This document shows, one piece after another, positions 21,155 through 36,626 of a DNA stretch of 40,529 nucleotides. The stretch's first letter is position 1. Each line of letters opens with the position of its first letter. Source of the DNA: Thermococcus sp. JdFR-02 (lineage in GTDB: Archaea; Methanobacteriota_B; Thermococci; Thermococcales; Thermococcaceae); contig MTLP01000032.1 in assembly GCA_002009975.1 (NCBI GenBank), forward strand, positions 127,443 to 167,971. The letters are read 5' to 3'. The notes below the pieces were generated by a model. The model ran no database searches and was not told the DNA's origin. It saw only the letters and a list, made by a program, of their open reading frames with translations. A program made the position numbers and the translations under genes.

Positions 21155-21208
21155 TAGTGATGAACCTTTGACATGCTGAGTAGTGATGAATACGGGAGTG
21201 TCTGATCA
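21155..21208 (+). ncRNA. Box C/D guide sRNA candidate
   Basis: All four boxes match the archaeal consensus: C box GTGATGA (21157-21163), D' box CTGA (21176-21179), C' box GTGATGA (21183-21189) and D box CTGA (21202-21205). Both guides are exactly 12 nt (21164-21175 and 21190-21201), and the D'-C' spacer is 3 nt, as in Pyrococcus and Thermococcus sRNAs. The D+5 and D'+5 rules predict 2'-O-methylation of a U within target ACACUCCCGUAU (D guide) and of a U within CAUGUCAAAGGU (D' guide). A TATA box lies at the right distance. The RNA ends against the stop codon of the convergent mptE gene. I could not check the targets against rRNA. Confidence 0.88.
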
Positions 21209-30930: not shown

Positions 30931-32535
30931 TTGAAAAAGATTGTATCTCTTTTATTAATATTAATCATAATCGCATCGGGTTGCTTAGTAAAACAGCCCG
31001 CTGAGGTTAGATTTGAGATAGATAAAAAAATCGTGCAAACTGGAGAAACATTCCATTTAATCGTAACTATAAACAATACTGGAAAAGTTGCGTTTATTAA
31101 AATGGAGGATTTAATAGAGCTACCAGAGGGATTCACTATTCTGCAATCCCCTTCATTTCCAAGTCCTTTGAAAGTTGGTGATGTAACAGAGTTAGTATGG
31201 GTCATAAAAGCCCCCTCCACTCCAGGGGTTTACACAATAAAAGTTCCGCTAAAATTTATTGACGAGTTGAATCGCCCTTGGGGATTCTATCAAGAGTTCA
31301 CAATATCTGTAGTAAAGAAAGGAACTCCACCTCAATATTATGGAAAGCTTGAGGCTTCTTTAAACCTTCCTCAAAAATCAAGTGGAGGTTCTATATTAAA
31401 TGTCACCCTCACTCTAAAAAATAGCGGAAATGCTCCAATTGAGATTAAGGAGATTTCACTCAAACTGCTTGAAGGATTAGTTGTGTTGAATCAGCCTCAA
31501 CTACCTAGGAGCATAGGACCGAACATGAACTATGTGATTACCTACAAGGTTAAAGCGAGCTATCAATACATTTCGGGCTACATAACTGTAATAATAGATT
31601 ACATCGAAAACAACAAAGAAAAAAGGAGAATTGAGAGCCAGTTCTTGGAAATTACATGGAGACCATGGCTAAAACCTAAAGATGTTCTTAAAGAAGCTTA
31701 TGGGGATAAATACGTCTGGATAGAGAATGAGTATCTGGTTGATGGTTATTGGAGTAGCAAGTTTAACTCCACATCATTTGTTAATCTCAACTCATTAAGA
31801 GATTACTCACTTCCTCTTGTTTTAAGCTCTAAGTCTGAATTCGAAGCTGCAAACATAATATACAACTGGATTAAGGAGAACTATAAACTTGGAGATGTCA
31901 CGATAACTTTAGATCCCTTAAGAATTATAGAACAAAGAAAAATAAGCTATGCTGAGAGTCAAATTCTCTTTACAGCTATGATGCGCTCCATAAGTGTGCC
32001 TTCGAGAATAGTCACTTTATACAACGGCAGCGACTGTACCCTAAGACCAATTTCTGAGTTCTATTATGAAAACAGCTGGTATATTGTGGATTTTGAGAAC
32101 AACTTTATTGGAAGTAGGGATGATTATATAGTCACTCCATACTTCCCAAAGATCTATCAGCTTATAACTAAAGAAAATTACAGGATAGTTGCTCAAGCTC
32201 CAGAAGACCTTGAAGGTCATGAACACTTAGAATTAACCCCTGATTATTTAGCAAACCTCAAAGATAGACTAAAATCAAAGGTCGAGAAGAAATTCAACCC
32301 AACTTTGAGACCAAAGTTTACAAAGATGCTTGCTGACATGAGCGAAAATGAACAAATCTTCACGCTATTCTTATTTGCCTCTGCACCAGAGAATGAACTA
32401 AATGAATTGTTTTCAAAGTATGATCCAAAAGAAATTTCCAAGGGAACAAAAACACTTTATGAGTTCTATAAAGATAAGGAATGGCCCGAGAACTTCATTA
32501 AATACTGGTATATCCTTAGGGGGGTTTACAAGTGA
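30931..32535 (+). CDS. Lipoprotein with degenerate transglutaminase-like domain
   Basis: This 534-residue protein has a lipoprotein signal (IIASGC), two NEW3/CARDB-like beta domains (about 25-125 and 140-240; [21 protein letters not shown]), then a transglutaminase-like domain (about 270-400). The latter keeps [17 protein letters not shown] and WYIVDFENN, but the catalytic Cys position is Tyr340 and the catalytic His position is Arg372; only the Asp (387) remains. So it is probably a binding rather than a catalytic domain. TTG 30931 is chosen because GGTGAG (30921-30926) lies 4 nt upstream; GTG 30922 is the alternative. It overlaps the next gene by 4 nt. Confidence 0.7.
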
Positions 32536-33080
32536 TAGTTGTCCTAAGATTAGGACACAGACCTGAGAGGGATAAGAGAATAACAACTCACGTTGCTTTA
32601 ACTGCAAGGGCTTTTGGAGCAGATGGGATAATAATTACAACAAGAGATGAGCATGTAGAAGAGAGCGTCAGAGATGTGATTAAACGCTGGGGAGGACCCT
32701 TTTTTATCGAATTTAACGAAAATTGGAGAAAGATTTTAAGAGAGTGGGACGGAAAGATAGTTCATTTAACCATGTATGGAATACCTGTTGATGAAATTTT
32801 ACCCAAAATAAAAGAGGATATGAAAAAAGGTGAAAACTTGCTAATTGTTGTAGGGGCAGAAAAAGTTCCAAGGGACGTTTATGAGCTTAGTGATTACAAT
32901 GTTGCAATTGGAAACCAGCCTCATAGCGAAGTTGCAGCATTAGCCGTTTTTTTAGACAGACTTTTAGAAGGAAAAGGTCTTAAAAAAGAGTTCAAGGATG
33001 CAAAGGTTAAGATAATACCCCAAGAAAGGGGAAAGAAGGTAATCAGCTTGGAGAGTGAAGAACATGCTGAACAAGTATAG
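32532..33080 (+). CDS. tRNA (cytidine(56)-2'-O)-methyltransferase, Trm56
   Basis: This 182-residue SPOUT methyltransferase adds a 2'-O-methyl group to C56 in the T-loop of archaeal tRNA. The N-terminus [20 protein letters not shown] is characteristic, as are [48 protein letters not shown], the knot region that binds SAM. The GTG start overlaps the stop of the lipoprotein gene (GTGA), with TAGGGGGG upstream. It overlaps the CDP-alcohol phosphotransferase gene by 17 nt. Confidence 0.93.
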
Positions 33081-33654: not shown

Positions 33655-34680
33655 TTATCTCTTCACAAACCAGCTCTCCAATGTAAATTGCCTTCCTGCT
33701 CTAACCGCTTTTTTAAGTCTTTGCAATCCGTTTTTGACTCTTTCTTCACTAAAGTCATGTTCATCGCACAGGAATTTTAGAACTCCTTCCTCATCCGGCA
33801 TTTTCCATTCAAGTTTGTATTCATCAGTGACAGGAGGATTTAGGAAAAACTCTTTAATAGCGTACAAATCAACGTCGCTGTGTTTAATATAAAGTGCAAA
33901 GGGGTCTTTTTTATACTTAACAATCTCTAGAGCTTTTTTTGGTCCGATACCTTTAATTCCACCTGGATTGTAATCTGTTCCAACCAAGATTGCCAGTTCT
34001 ATTAGCTTTTCCCTTGTAATCTTAAGTTCCTTCAAAACTTCTTCCAAAACTATAAGCTCTGGCTTAATCTCAACGTAAATGTCCTTTCCTGGCAATTTTC
34101 TTCTTCCCGTAATTGTAAGGTTTCTAACCAATCTAGGCGTTCCAAACAAAAGAGAGTCGTAATCCTGAGATGCCGATGCCCAAACGTTGCCTTTTAAGAC
34201 CATATAAGCTGCTTGAGCTTCACCCTCACTTGGTGCTTGAACCCAAGGAATCCCCATAAGCTCTAAAAGCTTCTTTGCATCATTGATGAGCTGTTCGTTA
34301 ACCTTTGTAGCCCTTTGAGCGTATTTTTTAGCCTCTTCAAGTTCTCCAGCTGCTAGAGCTTCCTCCCATTTCACTTTAGCCTCTTCTCTCGCTTTCTCCC
34401 TCATTTCCAGTTCCTTCTTTTTGAATTCTGGAGGCTTTCCATCAAATACGTATGCAGGCTTTATCCCTGCTTCCATAAGGTTTATAGTTCTATAAAAAAG
34501 TCCTGATAGGTGAGATGTTATTCTCCCCTTCGAATCCATTAAAGGCGTTCCATCTCTTTGTCTAATCGTAGAGAGAAACTGGTAGACAGCATTAAATGCA
34601 TCAATAGCAATTTTTCTGCCATTGAGATTTTCAATTTCAATCTCTTTTTTAGGAATTAACTCACCAATAGGAACTCCCAT
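33655..34680 (-). CDS. fen: Flap endonuclease 1
   Basis: This 341-residue nuclease removes 5' flaps in lagging-strand synthesis and repair. Active-site acidic residues are present: Asp27 (AIDAFNA), Asp80 (YVFDGKPPE), the Glu pair in SEGEAQA, the Asp pair in [10 protein letters not shown] and Asp in GTDYNPGG. The helix-hairpin-helix [11 protein letters not shown] binds DNA, and the C-terminal RQFTLESWF is a PCNA-interacting motif. GGTGAGG is placed upstream of ATG 34680; that ATG overlaps the stop codon of the PsiE-like gene by 1 nt, so the two are coupled. Confidence 0.96.
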
Positions 34681-35099
34681 TATGCCTCACCCACTTTAAT
34701 ATATAAATATCCCAACACAAATATAAGTACTGCTATTGCAAAGAGCTTTATTGAATCCAACTCTTTAAAATCAGAAGTAACCACAATTTTTTGAATTAGA
34801 GCAACAATTCCAACTTCAAGAATGTGGCTTAAACTTACACGGTGCTGCCTTAGGTAGATAATCAAAATGCGGTAAGTTTCAATTAGTATAATCGTCACAA
34901 GAACATTGGCAACTAAGAATTTTGGCTCCACAACGTTGTATGTAAGCTTAAAGTTCAGATAAATGGAATAAAGAGTTAGGTAGAGTATGAAAAAGAGAAA
35001 TATCATGACGACTAGGTCAAAGGCAACCTCTAACATTTTTCTGAAAACTTTATGAACTTGAGTATATTGAGCTATTTTTTCCTCCTCAATTCTTGTCAT
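34680..35099 (-). CDS. PsiE-like membrane protein
   Basis: This protein of about 139 residues has four membrane helices (about 25-45, 60-78, 95-110 and 118-136) and the segment [33 protein letters not shown], typical of the PsiE (phosphate-starvation-inducible E) family. Its function is not known. I start at ATG 35099 (MTRIEEEK): the longer readings starting at 35126 or 35129 would translate through the C', guide and D boxes of an sRNA encoded on the same strand. ATG 35105 is also possible. The RNA and this gene may come from one transcript. Confidence 0.78.
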
Positions 35100-35157
35100 T
35101 GGCATCAGCCTACCGAAAAGGCTCATCACCCTTCAGTGAGGGGAAGGCTCATCATCA
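35100..35157 (-). ncRNA. Box C/D guide sRNA candidate
   Basis: On the minus strand the boxes are C ATGATGA (35155-35149), D' CTGA (35136-35133), C' GTGATGA (35129-35123) and D CTGA (35108-35105). Guides are 12 nt (35148-35137) and 14 nt (35122-35109) with a 3-nt D'-C' spacer, the standard archaeal geometry. The fifth-base rule predicts methylation of a G in UGAGGGGAAGGC (D' target) and of a C in CCUACCGAAAAGGC (D target). A TATA box at 35178-35186 fits a start at about 35157. The two halves share GATGAGCCTT, so the sRNA looks internally duplicated. Targets could not be checked. Confidence 0.88.
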
Positions 35158-35177: not shown

Positions 35178-35186
35178 CTTTAAAAC
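35178..35186 (-). promoter_or_regulatory. Putative TATA box of the sRNA and PsiE-like gene
   Basis: Minus-strand GTTTTAAAG is centred near 35182, 25 nt before the expected 5' end of the sRNA at 35157. No separate promoter for the PsiE-like gene is visible, so the same transcript may serve both. Confidence 0.55.
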
Positions 35187-35388: not shown

Positions 35389-35432
35389 GCATAATAGATA
35401 TAACAGTTATGAAACTTCCTGTGGTGATGTCA

Positions 35433-36626
35433 ATGCAATGGAGGTTGTTCGGTGTTTTGTTACTTGGTTTGTTGGTTTTGAGTTCGTTTGGTAGTGCGGC
35501 AGTGCCAAGTAAGGGAGTTTCTCCAGCACTTGCTGAAAAAGTTGCCAGAAGCTATGTGCAGTGGATTGCTGTCAACATCCCTGACTTTAAAGAGTGGAGG
35601 GATGTAACTCTTGGAAAGCCTGTCACGTATTATTTCCCTAATGGTGAGAAAAGTGCTTATGAATTTGCAGTTTTCAAGAACGGTAAGAGTGTTGGGTTTA
35701 TTCTTGTTTCGGCAAGAAAAGACATGCCTCCAGTTTTGGAGTTTAGCAAAGCAAAACCACCAAGCTGGAAGTTAGAGAAAGTTAAAGAGCTTGCAGAAAA
35801 GAAGGGTTATAAAACTGGGAGACTGCTTTATTATGGAGCACTAACCTACAGCATTGATATTGGAAATGGGAAAGCAATAGGATTAAAAGACATGAAAATG
35901 AGAGAATATCCAATGAAAGTGGAATTAAAATTCAACAAAGAAAAAGCAAGAAGCACAGAATCATACACTTCTCTATCTTTGACTTTATCAACAACTCCTA
36001 TATTTTTAGATGGGAATAGCATAGAAGGAGTGCCCGCATGGACATCAGAAGACGATGGAGGATCGAGTATACAATACCCCAATAATGTGGGTTTAGCATC
36101 AGATCCATGGGATGATTGGGATGGTTGCTCTCCAATAGCTGCTTCAATGGTGATTGCATATTATGAACCCCAATTACGAGATGATTGGAACAGAGAAGCA
36201 ATTATTGATATTCTACACCACACTATGGGTACAGACTATAGCGGAAGTACAGTACCCTGGAACATAGATACAGGGATTGATTGGTTTGATGACGAATATA
36301 ACGACTTACGCAATCAAGGAATAGTAAGTGATCCACTTTATCACACATTTGATGGATCAAATGATTACTATGTTTCTCAGGATGATGTCATTAGAGAAGT
36401 CGACAATAAGCAACCCTTTGTGTTAAACATGTTTCCATATGGTAGTAGCTTAACTGAAGGGCATTCTGTTACAGTAGTGGGATACTCAAGATGGTTATAT
36501 TCAGACGGAACATCCAGCTGGATAGTGATGTATCTTGAAATTCATAATACTTGGGATTATTATGCTACATACATAACATTTGGAGACTGGACTACAGCGG
36601 TAGCAACATATGTAGATGCCTATTGA
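35433..36626 (+). CDS. Secreted C39-like cysteine peptidase with prodomain
   Basis: This 397-residue protein has a signal peptide (1 to about 24), an N-terminal domain of about 150 residues resembling inhibitory propeptides (AYEFAVFKNGKSVGFILVSARKD), and a papain-like catalytic domain. The likely nucleophile is Cys232 (WDGCSPIAASMVIAYYEP), the His is His344 (GHSVTVVGYSR) and the third residue is in IHNTWD. This is the layout of Peptidase_C39_2-type enzymes. I chose ATG 35433 because GGTGAT is 4 nt upstream; ATG 35409 lies at the predicted transcription start and would give eight extra residues. It may degrade environmental protein and supply the peptide importer, which is inference. It has no sorting tail. 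Confidence 0.75.
   Translation: MQWRLFGVLLLGLLVLSSFGSAAVPSKGVSPALAEKVARSYVQWIAVNIPDFKEWRDVTLGKPVTYYFPNGEKSAYEFAVFKNGKSVGFILVSARKDMPPVLEFSKAKPPSWKLEKVKELAEKKGYKTGRLLYYGALTYSIDIGNGKAIGLKDMKMREYPMKVELKFNKEKARSTESYTSLSLTLSTTPIFLDGNSIEGVPAWTSEDDGGSSIQYPNNVGLASDPWDDWDGCSPIAASMVIAYYEPQLRDDWNREAIIDILHHTMGTDYSGSTVPWNIDTGIDWFDDEYNDLRNQGIVSDPLYHTFDGSNDYYVSQDDVIREVDNKQPFVLNMFPYGSSLTEGHSVTVVGYSRWLYSDGTSSWIVMYLEIHNTWDYYATYITFGDWTTAVATYVDAY

Follow-up and report, generated by a model that had tools for sequence, protein, structure and literature searches.

The leader of the psiE-like gene in the window (the whole 40,529-nucleotide stretch of Thermococcus sp. JdFR-02 DNA analysed here) raises the question of whether it carries a guide RNA and, if it does, where the protein behind it begins. 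With a probability of roughly 0.93, we take the locus to hold a dual-guide archaeal box C/D sRNA that has its own promoter and guides rRNA methylation, followed by psiE with its start at 35099. Archaeal C/D sRNAs that overlap the 5′ end of an ORF make up 7% of the genes surveyed, according to the part of Tripp et al. (2017) that is reported in PMC7994747, and in T. kodakarensis 5′ UTRs contain 11 C/D sRNAs and 5′ coding regions another 12 (PMC4247193). The psiE locus resembles these cases in that a coding gene has a guide RNA in its leader and is probably co-transcribed with it. It differs in that the protein start lies just outside the RNA, the overlap being an effect of annotation and not a true coding overlap.

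Boxes, guides and the Rfam match

Read on the minus strand, positions 35155–35105 are ATGATGA-GCCTTCCCCTCA-CTGA-AGGG-TGATGA-GCCTTTTCGGTAGG-CTGA, a complete set of C, D′, C′ and D boxes. The initial annotation had described a minus-strand box C/D sRNA with four boxes and guides of 12 and 14 nt, and this description is borne out by the letters, by shuffling and by orthologues. From C box to D box the gene spans 35105–35155; the mature RNA probably extends from about 35159 to 35102. The C box (ATGATGA, 35149–35155) matches the consensus RUGAUGA and its core is invariant in alignment A1, which holds 20 sRNA sequences; the search model was built from 20 orthologues. The D′ guide GCCTTCCCCTCA (12 nt, 35137–35148), of which CCTTCCCCTC is invariant in A1, is complementary to 23S rRNA and is followed by the D′ box CTGA (35133–35136), also invariant. 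The AGGG spacer (35129–35132) between D′ and C′ is short, as is usual in archaeal box C/D sRNAs; the spacers observed measure 3–4 nt. The C′ box, TGATGA at 35123–35128 (GTGATGA if 35129 is included), is likewise invariant in A1 and is overlapped by the GTG at 35129 with which the longest psiE ORF starts. The D guide GCCTTTTCGGTAGG (14 nt, 35109–35122) ends in CGGTAGG, invariant in A1, and has a 5′ half that differs among lineages. The D box CTGA (35105–35108), again invariant, forms with its flanks the sequence AGG-C-UGAU, a bulged Shine–Dalgarno-like stretch able to form a duplex with the 16S 3′ end. A C box RUGAUGA, a D box CUGA, internal C′ and D′ boxes and guides of about 10–14 nt characterize archaeal box C/D sRNAs, and all are present here; other C/D genes of this genome have guides of mostly 12 nt.

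Two places in the whole window match a strict four-box pattern, 21157 (+) and 35155 (−), and 400 dinucleotide-preserving shuffles of the window contain no match. The Rfam family RF00095 (snoPyro_CD, Pyrococcus sRNAs) matches the psiE-leader sRNA from end to end with 43.1 bits (E = 8.9e-8), one of 19 matches to the family in this genome (E below 0.001). The gathering score of RF00095 is 45 bits, which the window copy misses by 1.9 bits because its D guide is altered (14 nt with a rewritten 5′ half, as against 12–13 nt in the orthologues), and Rfam at its curated cut-offs lists nothing for the window. The P. abyssi and P. horikoshii orthologues, in contrast, lie above the cut-off, and all nine orthologues tested pass it (46.2–56.8 bits). 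We call the psiE-leader sRNA an orthologue from its locus and sequence, not from this cut-off. Folded as a single strand, the leader gives a generic hairpin (z = −2.4), which was not counted as evidence because C/D RNAs are shaped on their proteins.

The other match to the pattern, at 21157–21208 (+), is a second box C/D sRNA, GTGATGA-ACCTTTGACATG-CTGA-GTAG-TGATGA-ATACGGGAGTGT-CTGA, and scores 33.6 bits against RF00095. Elsewhere in the same genome, locus L102 (G000:C9:34032-34088) is a C/D sRNA whose D′ guide is GCTTCCCCTCAAAG; CTTCCCCTCA is common to this guide and the psiE-leader sRNA.

Orthologues and gene order

Orthologues of the sRNA adjoin psiE in 19 of the 30 psiE loci fetched (the window's own excluded), and of 94 Thermococcaceae genomes searched with an A1-type model, about half have one that scores above 37 bits; at every locus whose surroundings were read they lie near psiE–fen1. 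A pattern scan over genome contigs returned chiefly chance bacterial matches, together with a few further Thermococcales loci. Judged by sequence and position, the psiE-leader RNA is a real guide RNA of a familiar type, conserved across the Thermococcales and orthologous to C/D sRNAs of Pyrococcus; apart from shifting the psiE start, it is fairly ordinary. The sR number given to the Pyrococcus orthologue by Gaspin et al. (2000) was not found in the papers searched.

The gene order is of two types. Layout 1, sRNA–psiE–fen1, is shared by the window's genus, genera g5 and g6, and a few g3 genomes. In layout 2 the sRNA does not precede psiE as it does in the window: in Pyrococcus it lies between psiE and fen1, with its D box right before the fen1 Shine–Dalgarno sequence, and in most other g3 genomes it is upstream of fen1 and overlaps the psiE 3′ end. 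The RNA is therefore conserved in settings where protein-coding is impossible, which shows selection on the RNA, not on a protein. The psiE versions of the two layouts are 24–41% identical to each other, compared with 75–85% within layout 1, and Palaeococcus (L006) has a window-type psiE before fen1 without the sRNA. The psiE slot beside fen1 is filled by two diverged versions, by lineage on different sides of the sRNA; this suggests that one version was replaced by the other at the fen1-adjacent slot. Some more distant Thermococcus copies of the sRNA have decaying boxes, and in L135 (T. kodakarensis) it is reduced to the vestige GGCAGGCTGAGGCAAA upstream of fen1, the 23S target sequence being unchanged. 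A guide RNA has been kept beside fen1 while the neighbouring psiE switched both type and side, with decay in part of Thermococcus, and the locus is a useful case of how guide RNA genes move and die. The species names are those that we take the genomes to represent: G006, P. abyssi; G020, P. horikoshii; G018, T. barophilus; G015, T. litoralis; G029, T. kodakarensis (with locus L135); and G003, Palaeococcus pacificus.

The orthologues also bear on a proposed internal duplication. The initial annotation had pointed to GATGAGCCTT in both halves of the sRNA and suggested that the second half arose by copying of the first; the shared sequence is there, and the origin by copying is ruled out by the orthologues. 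Five of its 10 letters belong to the C or C′ box and the remainder is GCCTT, which in the second half occurs only in the window's lineage, others having GCACAC, GCATAC, ACACAC, GCAATC, GCAACC or GCCTA before CGGTAGG. Orthologue D guides such as GCACACCGGTAGG, GCAATCCGGTAGG and GCCTACGGTAGG have nothing systematic in common with the D′ guide. With the two guides of the orthologues unrelated, copying is rejected; change in the window's lineage would be limited to a few bases in the variable 5′ half of its D guide.

Guide targets in 23S rRNA

Targets were sought in the 23S rRNA of four relatives, own-species rRNA being absent from the assembly. Sites in rRNA had been anticipated for UGAGGGGAAGGC and CCUACCGAAAAGGC; the first has one in 23S, 5′ of the sarcin–ricin loop, while for the second a full-length rRNA site was not found and its CGGTAGG end fits, weakly. 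The D′ guide GCCTTCCCCTCA pairs over 11–12 nt with TGAGGGGAAGGC/T in all four relatives, directly 5′ of the sarcin–ricin loop (2735–2746 in T. barophilus 23S). This match is equalled by 0–4 of 200 shuffled guides (the guide is pyrimidine-rich); the 13-nt D′ guides of other lineages do less well against their own shuffles, 1–22 of 200 being as good. Guided methylation falls on the fifth nucleotide from the box. The 12-nt D′ spacing of the window thus predicts methylation of the equivalent of T. barophilus G2739 and the 13-nt spacing of most relatives that of G2738, a one-nucleotide shift that follows the length of the D′ guide in each lineage. The target G presumably corresponds to about G2640–2641 of E. 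coli.

For the D guide, CGGTAGG pairs with TCTACCG at two places in 23S: one lies 22 nt upstream of the D′ site, the other 51 nt downstream. When the comparison is confined to positions no more than 100 nt from the D′ site, about 2–7% of shuffled guides score equally well; over all rRNA the match is not significant against shuffles. Among the 43 tRNAs of the genome itself, the conserved D guide reaches a best score of 6.5, which is no good site, and the window version only a weak 8.5. These comparisons point only suggestively to a D target at either 23S site. Closely spaced double targets are typical of C/D sRNAs (PMC7994747). In the proposed mechanism the D′ guide would direct 2′-O-methylation of the 23S G just before the sarcin–ricin loop (T. 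barophilus ~2739) and the D guide probably that of a nearby C (~2717 or 2790), adding a predicted methylation pair around helices 93–95, beside the loop.

The RNA might instead be partly degenerate in the window's lineage, with a D′ side that works and a D side that has lost its target. The 5′ half of the D guide has indeed been rewritten and lengthened to 14 nt, and in other lineages the RNA decays or has disappeared, down to the T. kodakarensis vestige in L135. However, all four boxes are preserved, as is the seed CGGTAGG beside the D box, and at the upstream 23S site, 22 nt from the D′ target, the changed half still forms G–U pairs. We regard loss of the D target as unlikely, though deserving of some weight, and prefer a dual-guide sRNA.

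Two contigs of the assembly (G000:C4:1-52 and G000:C28:1-52) open with the identical last 52 nt of 23S rRNA and neither 16S nor 23S was found elsewhere in it, which suggests that two rRNA operons were lost in assembly. In the window, about 2 kb from the guide RNA gene, 32532–33080 (+) encodes aTrm56, a tRNA ribose 2′-O-methyltransferase (Pfam Trm56, 175 bits) and a protein-only methylation enzyme.

Promoter, protein start and the D box

A TATA-like box, TTTTAAA (35179–35185, minus strand), has its end 24 nt ahead of the C-box core; 18 of 18 layout-1 loci have a similar box 23–25 nt ahead of theirs. In T. kodakarensis the TATA box has a median distance of 23 bp from the transcription start site (PMC4247193); by this rule transcription should start approximately at the mature 5′ end of the sRNA and continue into psiE. 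The initial annotation had considered the TATA box rightly placed, which agrees with the spacing kept in the 18 loci, and had thought that the RNA may be cut from the psiE mRNA leader; the position of the promoter supports either release of the RNA from the psiE–fen1 message, whose leader it forms, or competition with that message. We infer that the sRNA is expressed from this promoter of its own, which would put the start site a few nucleotides ahead of the C box, and that the transcript is able to run on into psiE and fen1 (flap endonuclease 1, 33655–34680, minus strand; Pfam XPG_N and XPG_I), which lies downstream in the same operon and is adjacent in relatives of both layouts. L7Ae, Nop5 and fibrillarin would assemble on the C/D and C′/D′ k-turn motifs and shield about 55–60 nt, the remainder being trimmed. 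The sequences themselves establish the boxes, their conservation, the place of the promoter, the D′ complementarity and the protein start, whereas expression, RNP assembly, trimming, methylation and the D target are predicted.

The PsiE-like membrane protein (Pfam PsiE PF06146, 41.6 bits) has 139 aa with its corrected start and is encoded by 34680–35099 (minus strand). The longest psiE ORF, starting at GTG 35129, overlaps the C′ box. An ATG is conserved 5 nt after the D box (6 in L062) in all 18 layout-1 loci and gives a protein of 139–140 aa; in L062 the TGA of the D box is itself an in-frame stop, and in other relatives the frame closes inside the RNA. Within the D box there is another ATG, at 35105; most g6 loci have ATA in its place. 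Taken together, the conserved ATG and the in-frame stops in relatives place the start of the window PsiE at 35099, 5 nt past the D box, from which translation would proceed. The long PsiE is rejected on these stops, above all the one in L062. That the gene start is misplaced if the RNA is missed had been foreseen, and the conserved start at 35099, as opposed to GTG 35129, supports it and corrects the start of the PsiE-like protein across several Thermococcales lineages.

Across the D box, 4 nt ahead of the ATG, AGG-C-UGAU matches the Shine–Dalgarno sequence AGGUGAU except for a single bulged C. Its pairing with the 16S end GAUCACCUCCU is calculated at −9.3 kcal/mol, among about the best 3% of random window 20-mers; the plain GGTGAT of Palaeococcus gives −8.8 kcal/mol. 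The base after the D box is T in 18 of 18 layout-1 loci and G in the other layout. A tentative and rather doubtful proposal is that in layout 1 the D box doubles as the psiE Shine–Dalgarno sequence, each transcript becoming either a guide RNP or a translated psiE–fen1 message; alternatively, the T is merely tolerated. In that case ribosome and C/D RNP could not share one transcript, and maturation of the guide may compete with translation of psiE. Were the proposal true, the locus would act as a simple natural switch that yields either RNA guide or message, and the supply of guide RNA or the level of L7Ae would be linked to how strongly a membrane protein and a replication/repair nuclease are expressed. 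L7Ae represses mRNAs via leader k-turns in Sulfolobus (PMC5539422), and 5′-overlapping C/D genes lower reporter expression in the work of Tripp et al. (2017) as far as PMC7994747 reports it. The Sulfolobus l7ae leader is similar in having a k-turn-forming C/D element near the ribosome-binding site (PMC5539422); the window differs from it in having a whole sRNA with two guides, one of them conserved and complementary to rRNA.

Control in cis could also be the main or only function, L7Ae on the leader k-turns masking the start and repressing psiE–fen1, with little or no free guide. Such a role would fit the D box of layout 1, which overlaps a Shine–Dalgarno-like stretch 4 nt from the start codon, and the Sulfolobus precedent, and the T. 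kodakarensis authors consider that some leader snoRNAs might act in this way (PMC4247193). Yet a conserved D′ guide that fits 23S and two complete k-turns would be superfluous for cis control, and most other Thermococcus genomes carry the RNA over the 3′ end of a different psiE, off start codons; we judge this explanation very improbable. It is scarcely credible that the boxes arose by chance within the coding region of a PsiE extended to GTG 35129 or beyond: the frame is open back to 35129 in the window and further back in several g5 relatives, but its closure in other relatives contradicts the idea, the D-box stop refutes it in L062, and the RNA is conserved where psiE does not follow.

Divergent from the promoter of the sRNA and psiE, 35409–36626 (+) encodes a secreted-looking Peptidase_C39_2-like protein, and in some relatives other sequence is found at that position.
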